This document shows positions 2,254 through 57,834 of a DNA stretch of 64,000 bases, piece by piece. Below the pieces are notes generated by a model. That model saw only the letters and a list, made by a program, of their open reading frames with translations. It did not search any database and was not told the origin of the DNA. The DNA lies in contig NZ_CP018870.1 in NCBI RefSeq assembly GCF_001941845.1, positions 1,240,001-1,304,000 of the forward strand. Direction: 5' to 3'. This stretch comes from Streptomyces sp. TN58. GTDB taxonomy: Bacteria; Actinomycetota; Actinomycetes; Streptomycetales; Streptomycetaceae. The translations under genes and the position numbers were made by a program. How positions within the stretch are numbered: the first letter of the stretch is position 1; the number at the start of each line of letters is the position of its first letter.

Positions 2254-5200
2254 TCAGGCGGTCGGCGCGGCGCTGCGGCGGAACATCCGGGTGGCCGTGA
2301 TCTCGCCGTGGATGGCCTCGCCCTCCGGGGACTGCTGCGGCAGGCCGGGGCGCAGGTGCTCCTCGACGCTGATGTACTTCAGGCCCGCCCGCAGGTCCGC
2401 GTCGTTGCGCAGGCGGATCACCAGCGGGAACTCCGCCAGGGCGGTCGTGTCGAACAGTCCGGTGGTGTAGAGCAGCTGGACGCCGAGCGCGTCGGACACG
2501 GCCCGCTGGAGCTCCAGCAGGTAGGTGGCGTTGGCGCGGCCGATCGGGTTGTCGAGGAACAGCGTGCCCGCGTGCCGGTGCTTGTCCCGGCCCCGGTCGT
2601 TGCTGCGCAGGGCCGCCATCGTGCAGTAGAGGGCGATGGCGGCGGTCAGCAGCTGCCCACCGGAGAACACGTCGCCCATCTGCCCCACCGGCACCCGTTC
2701 GGCGCGCAGCACGGCGTCCGGCTTGAGGATCTCCACGGAGATGCCCTTGGGCTCCAGGGCCGCCTGCACGCCCCGCAGCAGCAGGGACATGCCGTCGCGG
2801 CGGCCCTCGCCGAAGGCGGCGGCGCCGTTCTTCTTCACGGCCGTGCGCGTGGCCTCGTCGATGACCTCGCCGAGCCGCTCGGTGAGGGTGGCCTGGTCCG
2901 GTTCCTCGAAGCGGATCCGCAGGAACTCCTGCCCCGACCATTCTCCGAGGCCTTCGGGGAGCTGGGACAGGCGCTGTGCGGAGCGGAGCGTGGCGAGGGC
3001 GGATTCGACCAGGCCGCGCAGCCGGTCGACGATGCTGTCGCGGTTGCGCTCCAGCTGCGCCAGCTCGTCGGTCAGGACACGCAGCCGGGGGGCGAAGGCC
3101 GCCGCCCAGGCCGCCGCGTGCTCGGGCAGGGCGGATGCGGGCAGTTCCCGGATCTGCTGGCGCGCGGGGGTGCGTACCTGCTCGTAGCGAGTGGCGTTGG
3201 CGTGCCGGACCAGTACGTCGCTCGCCTCGCGCACCGCGGACTCCGCGGCCGACAGGTCGGCGGAGCAGCCGCGCAGGGAGCGGCGGGCCTCGGTGGCCGA
3301 CTGGCGGGCCTCCTCCAGCGTGCCGGGGTACGCCGCCGGCTCCTGCTCCTCGTCGTGATGGGTGTGGTCGCGCAGCAGGTCCCGCAGGAGCGCCGCGGTC
3401 TCGTCGAAGCCCCCGGCGCCGTCCTCGGCGGTGCGGTGGGCCCGCAGGAGGTCCGCGTGGGCGGCGCGGGCGCCCTCCACAGCCGCGGTGTGGGCGGCGA
3501 GCTGGGCGGTGGCGGTCCGCAGCAGGGCCTGCGCCTGGTCGACGTCCGCGGGGACCAGTTCCTCGGGCAGGTCGGTGTGCGCCTCGCCCTCGGCGGGGGC
3601 GTGCCGCTCGGCTTCGCCGCGCAGGCGGCCGAGCTGCTCGCTGGCGGCCGACGCCCGGGTCTCCAGCATCTGTACGAGGGCTTCGGCGCGGGCGGCCGCG
3701 GCCTGGCGGGAGGGGCCGTCGGCGCCGTCGGTGCCCTCCAGGAGCTGGGCGGCGCGGGTGCGGACCTTGTTGGTGAGGCGGTCGAGTTCGGCGAGGGCGG
3801 CGCTCTCGTCGCTCTCGGCGCGGGCCTGTTCAGCGCGCAGGTCGGCGCCGACGCCGACCTTCTCGTAGAGCCGGGAGGCGGCGCGGTAGGCCTCGCGGAG
3901 GTCGGGAAGCGGCACACGCGGGCCGTCGGCGGCGTCGGGCAGCTGGTCGGGGGCGCCGGCGATCTCGGCGCGTTCGGCGCGCAGCGCCCGGGCGGTGCGG
4001 CGGGCGTCGTCGGCGGCCCGCTGGGCGGCGCGGCGGTCCTCGTCGGCGGCGCGGGCTCGGTCGAGGCAGGCCTCGGCGCGGGCCTCGGACTCGGCGGCCT
4101 CGTCGGCGAGTTCGCGTACGCGGGCCTGCCAGCCGGCGCGCTCGCGCAGGCGGAAGGCGAGGCCCGCGAGGGCGTCGGCGGCGCGGCGGGCGCGCTGGGC
4201 GGTGTCCTGGCGCTCGTCGCGGACGCGCGCGGCGTCGGCGGCGGCCTCGTCGGCCTCGGCGCGGACGGTACGGGCTTCCGCGAGCTCGGCGTCGGTCTCC
4301 TCGGCGAACATGCGGGCGGCGGCGGCCGCCTGCGCGAGCTCGCCGAGCCGGCCGGGCGGGCAGCCGGTGCGCCAGGAGGCGAGCCGGGCGGAGAGCTCGC
4401 GGTCGCCGGCGAGGCGGGCGGCCAGGTCGCGGATCTCGGTGTCGCGGGCCGCGGCGCGGGCGCGCAGGGCCTGGCGCTCCTCGTCGGCGGCGTGCTCGTC
4501 GTGCATGGCCGGGTTCGGCGGCACGAGAAAGACGGCGGTGTCCTCCCCTTCGGGGCCCGGCGGGGGTACGGGTGCGAGCAGGGCTGCGGCCGTGCCCACG
4601 GCGACGGTGGAGCGGGGCAGCAGGGCGGCGCCGGAGAGGACCTCGCGGGCCCTGCTGTGGGTGTCGGGGTCGGTGATGACGACGCCGTCGACGAGCTCGG
4701 GGCGGGCCGCGAGGACGGCGGCGTGGTCGGCGGGGTCGACGGCCTGTGCGAGGTAGCGCCAGCCGGGGAGCGCGGGGATGCCGTGTTCGCCGAGGTACTC
4801 GACGGTGGCGAGGACGTCCGGGCCGGGCGGGAGCAGGCCGCCGTCGCCGAGCGCGCCGAGGATGCGGGAGTCGTCGGCCGCGGCGGTGCGCAGCTCGAAC
4901 AGCTGGCGCTCGGCCGAGGCGACACCGTCGGCGAGCAGTTCGCGCAGGTCGTCGGCGTTGCGGTCGAGGTCTTCGGCGGTGAGCAGGCCGACGGCGGTGG
5001 CCACCGCGGAGCGGCCGGTCCCCTGTGCCTCGCCGAGCGGGCCGCCGCCGGACGCGCCGGTGGACGCGCCCGTGGATCCGTCGCCCGTGCGGGGCGCGGG
5101 GACGGACACGTCGGCGGGGTCCGCGGCCGAGGGCAGCCCGAGGAGTTCGGCCAGGCGCGGGGAAGCGGCGAGCGAGGCGGCGGCGCGGTGCTCGGCGTCG

Positions 5201-29078: not shown

Positions 29079-29156
29079 GCCCGCCAGGGCGGGGCTGAGG
29101 TGAGAGGCGCGGGGTGGCTTCGGCGGCGGGAGACGCGCGGGCGGGATTGATATGTC

Positions 29157-29845
29157 CTGGGGGTTTCCCGTCAGTCCAATCGTCTCTCCGCGTCGGGCCG
29201 GTCCCTCAATGGCGCTCCCTCCGGTCGCGTCGCTTCGCGATGTCGCTGCGCTCCACCATTGACCGACCGCCCCGCCACGGAAATCCGAAAGACTGCCGGG
29301 AAGCCCCCAGAGGAACGGGCCGGCCATCAAGACACCCCTCGGGCAGGTCGGCGCCGCGCACCCGGATCCAGGAGCGCCCCAAATCGCTACGCGCTCCTGA
29401 AGGACGGCGTCCCCCCGTCTCTTGGGCTGGTCACAAGCCGCCCCAGATCGCTACGCGCTCCCCGATCAGGCGTCCGCAAGCCTCTCGGGCTGGACATAGG
29501 CCGCCACCAATCGCTACACGCTCCTCGACGACCGCGCCCGCCCCTTGTTCGGGGCTGGGAGGGGCGAAATCGAGGGCCGGGAAGGCGATTCCTCGGCTCA
29601 GCCGAACTCAATCCCCATCAAGACCACGGCGAGAACCCATCCGTGAGTACAGACGGGGCTATCGGGGCGAACTGAAGCTTCGCGGCGCACACCTTCACCC
29701 AGACATGGATTGGCATCGCTCCAGCCGTCAGCCGACGCTTTTCCACCTCACCCAGGGGCCGGATGCCGTCCAAGAGGAGCGCGGAAAGCTTTCTGCGGTT
29801 GCACCCAAGCCCAAACTCACCGCGGACGCGTGACCGAGATGCGGG
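29157..29845 (+). repeat. Truncated copy of the palindromic repeat element (copy 1)
   Basis: This non-coding copy has the terminal module A at 29157-29310 (arms CTGGGGGTTTCCCGTCAGTC and GACTGCCGGGAAGCCCCCAG), a spacer, a first unit with the hairpin AGGAGCGC/GCGCTCCT (29370-29398), two more units of about 63 bp, and the conserved core ending near GGAAAGCTTTCTGCGG at about 29800. It then fades out near 29845, where Tn3 transposase sequence begins. The second half of the element (inverted units and inverted module A), present in the copy at 55.3-56.5 kb, is missing. Reading frames across it are probably fortuitous. Confidence 0.85.
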
Positions 29846-50332: not shown

Positions 50333-50503
50333 CGGGTCCTCCTGCCTCGTCGGGCACGGACTCCGGGGCCTGTCGGGATACGACAGATGAAGCGGAACAG
50401 CTCACGTGGGGACGCCGAGGCCGGTGAAACGGTTCGACCGGGCGCATCCGACAGGGATGCGCCGATGAACCGCCGACGGCGGCGTACCGGTGACTGGCCC
50501 GCC

Positions 50504-50628
50504 GCGCACTGCCTCCCATCCGGACTTTAACCGTCGGTCCAGGAATTTCACCTGGTCAACCGGCCGCTGGCTGCGGACGGGTCGCGGACTATACCGCCGG
50601 TTCGGAATTACACCGACCCCGGAGTGCG
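50504..50628 (-). ncRNA. FMN riboswitch (RFN element)
   Basis: Read on the minus strand the region has the conserved RFN blocks: CTCCGGGGTCGG, GTAATTCCGAACCGGCGGT, ATAGTCCGCGACCC, CCGGTTGACC, AGGTGAAATTCCTGGACCG, ACGGTTAAAGTCCGG and ATGGGAG. It lies about 170 bases upstream of ribD, so FMN is expected to switch off ribD-ribE-ribM-ribBA-ribH, most likely through translation or termination. Confidence 0.97.
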
Positions 50629-50837
50629 CTGCTACTGGTACTCCAGCCAGTTTGCCACGGCCGATCGCCCGCCATGCGGGTGATGTGGTGTGGCCTGGCT
50701 CACAGAGGGTGACTCGGGGGCTACGCCGGGGCGGGCCGGGTCTGGATCCGGGGGTGGGGCGGGCGCGGATCTGCGGCGAGGCCCGAGAACCGGTCGGGGC
50801 ACACCCGACCTCGGGTCCGGGCGAGGAGAAAGCGCTT

Positions 50838-54408: not shown

Positions 54409-55158
54409 ATGAGCGCCATCGTCGTCACCGGAGGCACCGGAACCCTCGGCTCGCTCGTCACCGAGCGGCTGAGGGCGGCGGGCCACGAGGTGCGCGTGCT
54501 GAGCCGGCACGCCCCGGACCACCCCGTCGACCTCCGCAACGGTGCCGGGCTGGACGCCGCGCTGGCGGGCGCGGAGGTGGTTGTGCACTGCGCGAGCGAC
54601 GCGCGCGGAGGCGGCAGGGGCGACGTGGCGGCCGCGGGGAACCTGATCGCGGCCGCCCGGCGGGCCGGCACCGTCCGCAACATCGTCTACATCTCGATCG
54701 TCGGTGTGGACGTGGTCCCGCTCGGCTACTACAGGCGCAAGCTCCAGGTGGAGCGGCTGCTGGAGGCGTCCGGTCTGGGCGTGACGATCCTGCGCACGAC
54801 GCAGTTCCACGACCTCGTGGCGATGGTGACGGACGCTCTGGCGAAGCTGCCCGTCGTGCCGATCCCGAAGGGCGTACGGGTACAGCCGATCGCCGTCGGC
54901 GAGGTCGCGGCCCGCATGGCGGAGCTGGCGGTCCCGACCCCGTCGGGCCGGGTCCCGGACATGGGCGGCCCGGAGATCCACGCTCTGCCCGACCTGGCGC
55001 GCACCTACCTGTCGGCGACGGGCCGCTCCCGCCGCGTCCTCCCGGTCCCCTTCCCCGGCAAGGCCTACGCGGGCTTCAGACGGGGCGGCAACCTGACCCC
55101 GTCCCGCGCGGTCGGCAAGGAACGGTTCGCGCACTTCGCGCGCGAGCGGGGACGGTAG
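54409..55158 (+). CDS. NAD(P)-binding epimerase-like protein, ECF41 partner
   Basis: The 249-residue protein has a Rossmann motif VTGGTGTLGSLVTERL at the N-terminus, VVVHCASDARGGGRGD, and YISIVGVDVVPLGYYRRKLQVERLLEASG typical of NmrA/atypical SDRs acting as NAD(P)H-binding epimerase-like proteins. The start is the ATG at 54409 with GAAGGA upstream. It is the typical COE partner gene of an ECF41 sigma factor. The substrate is unknown. Confidence 0.88.
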   Translation: MSAIVVTGGTGTLGSLVTERLRAAGHEVRVLSRHAPDHPVDLRNGAGLDAALAGAEVVVHCASDARGGGRGDVAAAGNLIAAARRAGTVRNIVYISIVGVDVVPLGYYRRKLQVERLLEASGLGVTILRTTQFHDLVAMVTDALAKLPVVPIPKGVRVQPIAVGEVAARMAELAVPTPSGRVPDMGGPEIHALPDLARTYLSATGRSRRVLPVPFPGKAYAGFRRGGNLTPSRAVGKERFAHFARERGR

Positions 55159-55208
55159 GGGGCGGGGTCGGGGGGCGGAGTCCGGCCCGGGCGGGGTCGG
55201 ATGGCGGC

Positions 55209-55299
55209 GGGAGCTCCGGGGAGCGGAATCCGCTCGGGCAGGGTCGGATAGCGCGCCGGGAACTCCGGAGAGCGGAATCCACTCAGGCAGGGTCGGAGA
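55209..55299. repeat. 49-bp direct repeats flanking the palindromic element
   Basis: Two copies start with GGGAGCTCCGG (55209) and GGGAACTCCGG (55258), each followed by GAGCGGAATCC and GGCAGGGTCGG. A degenerate earlier copy is visible before 55209. Confidence 0.8.
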
Positions 55300-55303
55300 T
55301 GTC

Positions 55304-56471
55304 CTGGGGGTTTCCCGTCAGTCCCATCGTCTCTCCGCGTCGGGCCGGTCCGTCAAGGGCGCTCCCTTCGGTCGCGTCACTTCGTGAGGGCCTTCGGCCC
55401 CCCTTGACCGCCCGTCCCGCCACGGAAATCCGAAAGACTGCCGGGAAGCCCCCAGAGGAACGGCCGGCCATCAAGACATCCCTCGTGGCGGTCGGGGCCG
55501 CGTGCCCGGATCCAGGAGCGCCACCAATCGCTACGCGCTCCTGTGAGGCGGCGTCTGCGAGCCTCTTGGGCTGGGAATAGGCCGCCACCAATCGCTACGC
55601 GCTCCTGCGAGACGGCGTCTGCGAGTCTCCGGGGCTGGGCATAAGCCGCCAGCGATCGCGGTGCGCTTATCCATCATGCGTCCGCGAGCCTCTCGGGTTG
55701 GGCATAGGCCGCCATCGATGGCCGCGCGCTCTCGATCACGCGTCCGCAGCTTCTTGGGTTGGGCATAGGCCGCCAGTGGTGGCCGCGCGCTCTCGATCAC
55801 GCGTCCGCAGCTTCTTGGGTTGGGCATAGGCCGCCAGTGGTGGCCGCGCGCTCTCGATCACGCGTCTGCGGTTCGTCTGGGGCTGGGCACAAGCCGCAGA
55901 AAGCTTTCCGCGCCCCTCTTGGACGGCGTCCGGCCCCTGGGTGGGGTGGAAAAGCGTCAGATAACGGCTGGAGCGATGCCAATCCATGTCTGGGAGAGCG
56001 CGCACGGCCGAGAGGATGCCATTCGCCCCAAATACCCCCGTCTGTACCGACGGGTGGGATCTCGTCGTGGGCTTGACGGGGGTTGAGTTCGGCTGAGCCG
56101 AGGAATCGCCTTCCCGGCCCTCGAATTCGCCCCTCCCAGCCCCGAACGAGGGGCGGACGCGGTCGTCGAGGAGCGCGTAGCGATCGATGGCGGCTTATGA
56201 CCAGCCCAAGAGGCTCGCTGACGCCGTACGGCAGGAGCGCGTAGCGATTTGACGCGCTCCTGGATCCGGGCGCGCGGCGCCAACGGCCCGTCTCGGTCTT
56301 GGACACCCGGCCCGTTCCTCTGGGGGCTTCCCGGCAGTCTTTCGGATTTCCGTGGCGGGACGGTCAGTCAAGGGGGGCCGAAGGCCCTCACGAAGTGACG
56401 CGACCAACGGGAGCGCCCTTGACAGACCGGCCCGACGCGGAGAGACGATTGGACTGACGGGAAACCCCCAG
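55304..56471. repeat. Complete palindromic repeat element (copy 2)
   Basis: The 1168-bp element has this order on the plus strand: module A (55304-55455), first unit with the hairpin AGGAGCGC/GCGCTCCT (55514-55542), a tandem array of about 62-bp units to about 55900, a core of about 240 bp, two inverted units with the hairpin (56233-56261), and inverted module A (56320-56471). Modules A at the ends are about 150 bp and each can fold through 20-base arms. The core and right half match copy 1 at 29.2-29.8 kb in reverse. No transposase, reverse transcriptase or nuclease is encoded. I know no name for it. Confidence 0.85.
55518..55898. repeat. Tandem array of about 62-bp units inside copy 2
   Basis: Unit boundaries marked by GCCGCC fall at 55581, 55645, 55708, 55769, 55830 and 55893 (the last is GCCGCA), giving periods of 64, 63, 61, 61 and 63. 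The units at 55708, 55769 and 55830 are almost identical and share GCGCGCTCTCGATCACGCGT. Earlier units instead share ATCGCTACGCGCTCCTG. There are no unique spacers. Confidence 0.88.
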
Positions 56472-56472
56472 A

Positions 56473-56660
56473 ACCTCACCGACACCGCCCGGGTGGCTCC
56501 CGCCTTCGAAACCCCCGCCGCGTCTCCCGGCTCTGCTCGCGTGGCTCCCGCTCCCGAAACCCCCGCCGCGCCTCCCGGCCCCGCCCTAGCGGCCCCCGCC
56601 CCGAAACCCCCGCCGCGCCTCCCGGCCCCGCCCCAGCGGCCCCCGCCCCGAAGCCCCCCC
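56473..56660. repeat. GC-rich tandem repeats, about 48-bp unit, outside the right end of copy 2
   Basis: About three and a half copies of a unit containing GAAACCCCCGCCGCG and CTCCCGGCCCCGCCC lie between the inverted module A and the end of the serine hydrolase gene at 56674. They have no recognisable coding role. Confidence 0.8.
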
Positions 56661-56673
56661 CCGCCCGCCCCCG

Positions 56674-57834
56674 CTACCGGCAGAGGGCTTCGTCCACCGT
56701 GGCGTCGAGGCGTTGCGTCACCGTCTTGTCGGTCGGCTGGGTGGTGACCGCCAGGTGGGCGGCGCGGCGGCCGTGTTCCGTGGCGCCGCCGCGGGTCTCG
56801 TAGCCGGGGAAGCTCCCACCATGGCCCCAGTAGACGCCGCCGCACGACAGGGGCCTGCTCACGAGGCCCAGTCCGTAGCCGGCGCCGCGGCCGAAGTAGT
56901 CGGCGGGGACGGTGGTGCGCATCTGCGCGAGCTGGGCGTCGGGGAGGAGGCGGCCCCGCAGGAGCGCGGAGAAGAAGCGGTTGAGGTCCGAGTTGGTGGA
57001 GACCATCTGGCCGGCCGCCCAGCTCCAGGAGGGGTCCATCTCGGTGATGTCGCGCAGTGGCCCGTCCGCGGATTCCCGGTGGTAGCCGTGGGGGTGCGGC
57101 TCGCGGATGGTCGCGTCGCCAGGGGCGGGGAAGTAGGTGTGGCGCAGGCCGAGGCGCTGGATGATGCGCCGGTCGACCTCCTGGGCGAGGGGCCGGCCGG
57201 TGACCTCTTCGACGATCAGGCCGGCCAGTACGTAGTTGGTGTTGCTGTATCCCCATCTGGCGCCGGGGGCGAAGTCGGCTTCGTGCCGGAGCGCGATGTC
57301 GACGAGATCGCGCGGGGCGTAGGGCCGGGGCTGGAGGTCTTCGTACTTGGTGTAGTTGGGGAGTCCGCTCGTGTGTTGCAGCAGTTGGCGGACGGTGATG
57401 TGACGGCCGTCGATGCCCTCGCCGCGGACGAGGCCGGGGAGGTGGGTGTCGACGGGGTCGTCCAGGCCGATCCTGCCCTCGCCGACCAGTTGGAGGACGA
57501 CCACGGCGGTGAAGGTCTTGGTGTTGCTGCCGATGCGCACCTGACCGTCCCTGGGGACTTTCGATCCGGTGGCCAGGTCGCCCACTCCCGCGACGTAGGC
57601 GCGGGTGCGGCCGTCGCGTGTAGTGACGCTCGCGAGCGCGGCGGGCAGGCCGTCGGCGCTGACGAGCCGGTCGAGGCTCCGCTGGACGGTGTCGGTTCTG
57701 GGCGCGGCCGCGACGGACGGCGCCGTGGCGCTCAGGGCGCTCAGGGCCAGGACCGTGACGGCCGTGACCGCCGCCATCGGACGCAGGCTCTTTCGCGCGT
57801 GTGCGTGTGCGTGCCCATGCTCGTGCTCCCCCAT
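56674..57834 (-). CDS. Exported serine hydrolase of the beta-lactamase/D-Ala-D-Ala carboxypeptidase fold
   Basis: The 386-residue protein has a His-rich N-terminus (GEHEHGHAHAHARK), a signal segment ending about 44, and the motifs of class C-type serine hydrolases: SxxK in GSNTKTF, YxN in GYSNTNYV and HGG in WGHGGSFPGYE. It is likely secreted and may act on peptidoglycan peptides, D-amino peptides or esters. The start may be the ATG at 57834 or an internal one at residue 20. The 3-prime end reaches the repeat-rich region. Confidence 0.9.
   Translation of the reverse strand: MGEHEHGHAHAHARKSLRPMAAVTAVTVLALSALSATAPSVAAAPRTDTVQRSLDRLVSADGLPAALASVTTRDGRTRAYVAGVGDLATGSKVPRDGQVRIGSNTKTFTAVVVLQLVGEGRIGLDDPVDTHLPGLVRGEGIDGRHITVRQLLQHTSGLPNYTKYEDLQPRPYAPRDLVDIALRHEADFAPGARWGYSNTNYVLAGLIVEEVTGRPLAQEVDRRIIQRLGLRHTYFPAPGDATIREPHPHGYHRESADGPLRDITEMDPSWSWAAGQMVSTNSDLNRFFSALLRGRLLPDAQLAQMRTTVPADYFGRGAGYGLGLVSRPLSCGGVYWGHGGSFPGYETRGGATEHGRRAAHLAVTTQPTDKTVTQRLDATVDEALCR

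Follow-up and report, generated by a model that had tools for sequence, protein, structure and literature searches.

The palindromic element studied here lies in a 64,000-nucleotide stretch of the Streptomyces sp. TN58 chromosome (the window) and is one member of a dispersed family in which inverted, foldable DNA modules face each other in pairs, enclose varied genes or none, and are present or absent at corresponding sites of related genomes. We think it probable that the members of this family are non-autonomous mobile gene cassettes with structured DNA ends, which would depend on a putative trans-acting enzyme and whose interiors would be swapped by recombination. A sequence-only reading of the window had listed a non-autonomous mobile element among its guesses, and the copies, empty sites, cargo and plasmid copies below support that guess; the exchangeable genes of the family escaped that reading.

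Anatomy of the window element

The palindrome itself is real, with arms of 192 nt (positions 55272-55463 and 56312-56503) that are 92% complementary and, inside them, a second inverted pair of 136 nt (55487-55622 and 56153-56288) that is 82% complementary. From left to right the element consists of an outer array of G-rich ~47-bp units (55178-55303, plus strand); the left module A, a 150-nt imperfect palindrome (55304-55455, plus strand), which contains the hairpin cap TCAAGGG...CCCTTGA (55352-55408, plus strand), the most widespread part of the element; an inner array of 61-64 bp units (55519-55897, plus strand); a core of about 260 bp with no recognised gene (55890-56150); a second inner array, in inverted orientation relative to the first (56153-56288, minus strand); the inverted right module A (56320-56471, minus strand); and a right outer array (56472-56674, minus strand) that extends up to the stop codon of a minus-strand neighbour gene. 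The measured 61-64 nt spacing of the inner units, which are tandem and inverted between the two sides, agrees with the ~62 bp claimed earlier. The limits first given to the element, 55304-56471, are too narrow because the outer arrays, also inverted, are part of it. In comparison with the unoccupied site of the related genome G042 the extra DNA is 55178-56674 (~1.5 kb), so that the left outer array forms its left limit. The outer units are mirror-imaged left versus right of the element, and all 12 genome-wide matches to their pattern (at most one mismatch) fall at or within ~250 bp of an element end; a reversed-pattern control gave one match. Since these arrays are linked to element ends even where the neighbouring genes are codirectional (locus L030), they are an element part and not a gene-end feature. 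At two loci of another lineage (L145 and L148) the element end seemingly lies ~36 bp outside the cap.

The window copy looks like a cargo-less member of the family: its interior is the common core of ~260 bp, and no gene is recognised in it. None of its four ORFs of 102-169 amino acids matches Pfam at E 0.01, in keeping with the earlier statement that no enzyme gene is present. "Non-coding" is thus an apt description of this copy and a wrong one for the family, other copies of which enclose genes. An Rfam scan of the window at the gathering score gave no match in the element, and its sole match is an FMN riboswitch elsewhere (50502-50631, minus strand, 101 bits). The two flanking genes, which are convergent and outside the element, encode an NAD(P)-binding/NmrA-like protein (54409-55158, plus strand) and a PF00144 protein (Pfam name Beta-lactamase; 56674-57834, minus strand). 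The half-length second copy that had been noticed in the window is present at about 29149-29839 (plus strand); it has module A (29158-29310), inner units and core (29544-29798), and its right half is missing.

Copies in the TN58 chromosome

The TN58 chromosome is a single contig of 7,585,034 bases, in which a 192-base query has 26 matches. The 24 strong ones form 11 inverted pairs and two single halves (the window half copy among them), and the remaining two are weak self-palindromic echoes. The pairs are 1.16 to 2.8 kb long, and all 13 loci fall in the interval from 1.27 to 6.94 Mb of the 7.59-Mb chromosome. The cap motif, with up to three mismatches, occurs at 23 sites (the reversed control pattern at none). 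Module identity among the TN58 copies averages 0.924 with a minimum of 0.782 (locus L023 is an outlier, with a paralogue mean of 0.856), while comparison with the orthologous locus in other species gives 0.781-0.865 at three loci, one comparison group (G038lav) being a mixture of two genomes. That modules are more alike within the genome than at orthologous loci suggests spread or conversion of the ends later than the divergence of the species. The solitary half element at 3468287 (L025) has a Y1 transposase domain on its inner side (3466177-3466539), possibly a later insertion.

Folding and covariation of module A

The terminal modules had been described as foldable, and the left module A indeed folds alone into a long irregular stem of 150 nt with a three-hairpin cap. 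Its predicted folding energy is -87.7 kcal/mol as RNA (z -5.4) and -44.7 as DNA (z -5.1), and none of 200 shuffles was as good. In an alignment of the 69 distinct modules that match an end pattern and score at least 38 (others were left out), pairing is retained in 95.9% of cells, and compensatory changes are present at 15 of the 56 pairs, although the modules are related sequences and these changes are not independent events. Two-sided changes occupy 127 cells, compared to 40.1±4.9 in shuffled alignments and no more than 17 for slid versions of the structure, the latter being at a disadvantage in that the counted structure was taken from one aligned sequence. Four of the five covariation measures exceed both controls; the failing one is further pair types (18 versus 21.5 shuffled). 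Only two of the 56 pairs show one-sided changes (27 cells). If selection acted on an RNA, G-U would be expected to be favoured on one strand. Mismatches are of similar number in the two relevant classes, with 39 G-T cells (26 from a single pair) and 32 A-C cells; RNAalifold places one cap hairpin in a different register, with 15 G-U cells. The lack of a clear G-T excess over A-C favours a module A that acts as folded DNA, either a single strand or a cruciform, rather than as RNA, and this covariation pattern weakens, for module A, the early idea of a large structured RNA.

Distribution and pairing of the hairpins

Of 199 Streptomyces genomes 33 have module A at E <= 0.001, 12 of these at over 100 bits. 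Across the order, 30 of 293 genomes have the cap motif (29 of the 273 Streptomyces and one of the 20 others). The sole non-Streptomyces genome with the motif, G211, has 6% contamination. At least 120 cap-motif stretches come from named genomes, and the 80 listed by name include 78 from Streptomyces and two from metagenome assemblies; one motif lies on a 3.9-kb contig labelled as an Acidobacteriaceae MAG (L071), where binning contamination is likely. Phage records gave no match to the element and the exact cap motif is absent from the viral contigs searched; four plasmid records match the cap region, of which one is a good match and three are weak. No described element family was matched in Rfam, Pfam, the phage and plasmid records or the open-licence literature (most subscription journals are outside it), and an excerpt of PMC1590033 mentions Streptomyces in a reference only. 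In the draft genomes G369, G395, G287 and G415 several cap motifs are no more than ~1.4 kb from the contig start; the palindromes may therefore break short-read assemblies, and the cassettes may be under-counted.

The hairpins follow a pairing rule. With strands assigned by an HMM built on 19 modules, the cap-motif stretches together with the TN58 and later loci give 80 distinct neighbouring pairs within 6 kb, of which 79 point inward, one has both members on the plus strand and none points outward (a 20-bit cut removed one pair with both members on the minus strand, one of which scored 19.5 bits, and four duplicates were also removed).

Interiors: core and cargo

Protein genes are enclosed by 25 of the 79 inward pairs according to a crude rule based on GC content by codon position, whose cut-offs differed slightly between two runs. 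(Twenty-seven distinct pairs passed; L042, with 78 amino acids, and L148, with 71, were dropped by eye, and L023, which has a stop-broken YEYVP gene and other ORFs, failed the rule and is outside the 25.) The inner length is 1.1-4.0 kb with cargo and 0.1-1.5 kb in the 54 pairs without recognised cargo. At E <= 0.001, Pfam matches were obtained for 20 of the 25 (for L225, counted among them, only below the cut-off); L041, L089, L122 and L224 have none, and L219 itself was outside the scan. The domains are diverse: winged-helix HTH_34, GNAT, 2OG-Fe(II) oxygenase, DUF3089, aldo/keto reductase, CYTH, glyoxalase, GntR/UTRA, NUDIX, MarR, CMD, YunG, PadR, alpha/beta hydrolase, aminotransferase IV and AraC with GyrI-like/Cass2, as well as PIN and polyketide cyclase below the cut-off. 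A Pfam scan of 36 element proteins found no transposase, integrase or reverse transcriptase domain; 12 of the 36 matched nothing, and an enzyme could hide among these or in the pairs without recognised cargo. A 369-aa ORF in a 4.1-kb element (L156, 4324-5433, minus strand) is TnpB-like by eye only, with no supporting Pfam, NCBIfam or PDB sequence match.

The ~260-bp core of the window element is common to nine other TN58 loci (L021, L022, L024 and L027-L032) in either orientation, though only partly present in L022, L024 and L027, and it is also found in loci of G042 and G039; L032 has two tandem copies (2495-2738 and 2794-3054). The short TN58 element L027 retains a fragment of a YEYVP gene, so some cores may be decayed cargo.

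YEYVP, an 84-aa protein, is a recurrent passenger. It has 355 homologues, and among the 120 listed every name shown is Streptomyces; at least eight of the listed clusters are on the chromosome contig of strain NBC_00158. In the genomes searched, 10 of 11 distinct places with this gene are enclosed by an element or adjoin a lone hairpin on its inner side, and the three TN58 matches, each with an internal stop, are at three element loci. Its structure model is a small beta barrel (pLDDT 84) with no significant fold match. One homologue from S. racemochromogenes (P0025, 84 amino acids) is named "Transposase" in UniRef and hypothetical in NCBI; we found no evidence for transposase activity beyond the UniRef name.

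Gain, loss and exchange at individual sites

Twenty-two joined flank pieces were compared with five relatives of TN58 (G042, G054, G039, G173 and G038). At the window site, whose two flanks are held together only by G042 among the five, the two flank genes of G042 are adjacent, with ~40 bp where TN58 has 1,497; this site may be empty through loss. The L030 site is empty without visible remnant in G054, G039, G173 and G038, and in G042 the right flank has a pair next to it at the end of a contig, and the left flank stands at the start of a different one, a pattern that fits gain in the lineage of TN58 and G042. The L022 site is empty in G054 and G038, has an array-like remnant (by eye) in G039 and is split by contigs in G042; its cargo is HTH_34 and an unmatched 150-aa protein in TN58, and GntR and YEYVP in G173. 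At L031, G042 has inverted outer arrays joined without modules, by eye a remnant of loss, and the L023 site is empty in G173 and G054 and has a half element in G042. The L028 interior is a core in TN58, GntR and YEYVP in G173, and PadR and an alpha/beta hydrolase in G038; the parallel locus in G054 (L217) has GntR and YEYVP genes with no hairpin detected, the cargo apparently having been left behind. These mixed histories indicate that both gain and loss occur, and several sites are common to different species, which suggests that movement is slow. No target-site duplication is readable, because the intergenic DNA of the empty sites is too diverged to align at the junction.

A ~3.3-kb cassette with genes for GNAT, pterin dehydratase, a third protein and YEYVP is present, between different neighbours, in plasmids of Streptomyces sp. 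NBC_00158 and W1SF4 (L246 5900-9226 and L247 1039-4208). The W1SF4 copy lacks the left module, with ~148 bp near-exactly lost (L247 1164-1173 versus L246 6028-6176), as expected for palindrome deletion; a right module was not detected in either cassette.

How the cassettes might move

In the mechanism that we favour, module A would be the cis-acting end that is recognised, either as a folded single strand of DNA or as a cruciform, and the mobilising enzyme, recognised in none of the copies read, would be supplied in trans. Recombination between the near-identical arms of scattered copies could then homogenise the ends within a genome and would also swap interiors.

It is possible, though we consider it unlikely, that there is no transposition, and that old intergenic palindromes serve as homology arms between which cargo moves by homologous recombination and conjugative exchange. 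The different cargo at one locus, the greater likeness of modules within a genome than at orthologous loci and the loci common to several species are all what such arms would give. However, new sites require a non-homologous step, and arms of this kind do not readily account for the traceless absence of L030 from four of five relatives or for one cassette between different neighbours in two plasmids.

A host-function site, such as a bidirectional terminator or a nucleoid or replication site (the latter also suggested by the sequence-only reading), is much less credible. Among 68 classified sites (by crude ORF calls, with a neighbour up to 1.8 kb away) 31 are convergent, 30 codirectional and only seven divergent, and the TN58 loci are confined to the chromosomal interval given above, both as such a site might have it. 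Against this, the presence of the cap motif is patchy within the order, and the elements carry genes, occur on plasmids and differ between close species.

Movement of a REPIN-like element by a RAYT (Y1 HUH) transposase seems very improbable even though the layout, an intergenic inverted palindrome pair with no internal enzyme recognised, is what it predicts: eight of the 12 genomes with module A at over 100 bits lack Y1_Tnp at E <= 0.001, and none of the 36 element proteins scanned has a Y1 domain. The Pfam domain is found in 67 of 199 genomes (among the 12 only in G000, G012, G038 and G054; TN58 has two matches), and this distribution largely refutes Y1_Tnp as the partner enzyme; a diverged HUH enzyme could still fill that role. 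Parvovirus inverted terminal repeats and Streptomyces telomeres are comparable to the two inverted, multiply capped stems that flank each interior, yet descent from a small linear replicon with hairpin termini is scarcely plausible, given a cargo with no recognised replication gene, the negative phage and viral searches, and the absence of a module from the 3 kb at either TN58 end as assembled (the true ends are possibly missing).

If the cassette interpretation is true, these elements are an added gene-capture vehicle for Streptomyces, whose accessory genes matter for antibiotics, and a concrete system in which structured DNA ends that lack a known enzyme can be tested.

Comparison with known systems

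In behaviour the family comes closest to mobile insertion cassettes or integron cassettes; its layout resembles a giant REPIN. The minimal mobile elements of Neisseria also have different genes at one site in different lineages, but the Streptomyces site is itself a repeated hairpin structure of variable occupancy. Unlike an insertion sequence, the family has no transposase of its own that Pfam recognises in the four window ORFs or the 36 element proteins (12 of them matchless). REPINs are much shorter than the Streptomyces element. According to an excerpt of PMC3116915 they are inverted palindrome pairs, intergenic and without an internal enzyme, and the Streptomyces elements are likewise multi-copy intergenic doublets of imperfect palindromes in inverted orientation; they differ in having arrays and cargo and in that Y1 transposase is not co-distributed with them.

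Terminal inverted repeats without a transposase, the hallmark of mobile insertion cassettes and MITEs, are found here, and no autonomous relative with the same ends was recognised in the sample of 79 distinct pairs. The cassette MIC231A1, as described in an excerpt of PMC3913671, carries a passenger gene enclosed by inverted ends, lacks a transposase and is mobilised in trans by IS231A. The Streptomyces elements share the passenger genes, the inverted ends and the lack of a recognised transposase, and differ in that each end is a capped DNA hairpin of 150 nt, flanked on either side by repeat arrays, and that the cargo at one locus is varied.

The integron attC recombination site is folded single-stranded DNA (PMC2727003, in excerpt). 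Small interchangeable genes are common to both systems, and one Streptomyces passenger has a Pfam Cass2 domain ("integron-associated effector binding protein"). In contrast to the direct orientation of integron sites, the Streptomyces sites are paired head to head (79 of 80 inverted), with no cassette array and no integrase recognised in the cargo scanned. We offer only as a tentative, somewhat doubtful extension of the cassette interpretation that the family is an actinobacterial counterpart of integron cassettes, in which two facing DNA hairpins under structural selection would bound each gene cassette and be recognised as a folded single strand by a putative enzyme, and cargo would be exchanged among dispersed sites on chromosomes and plasmids alike.
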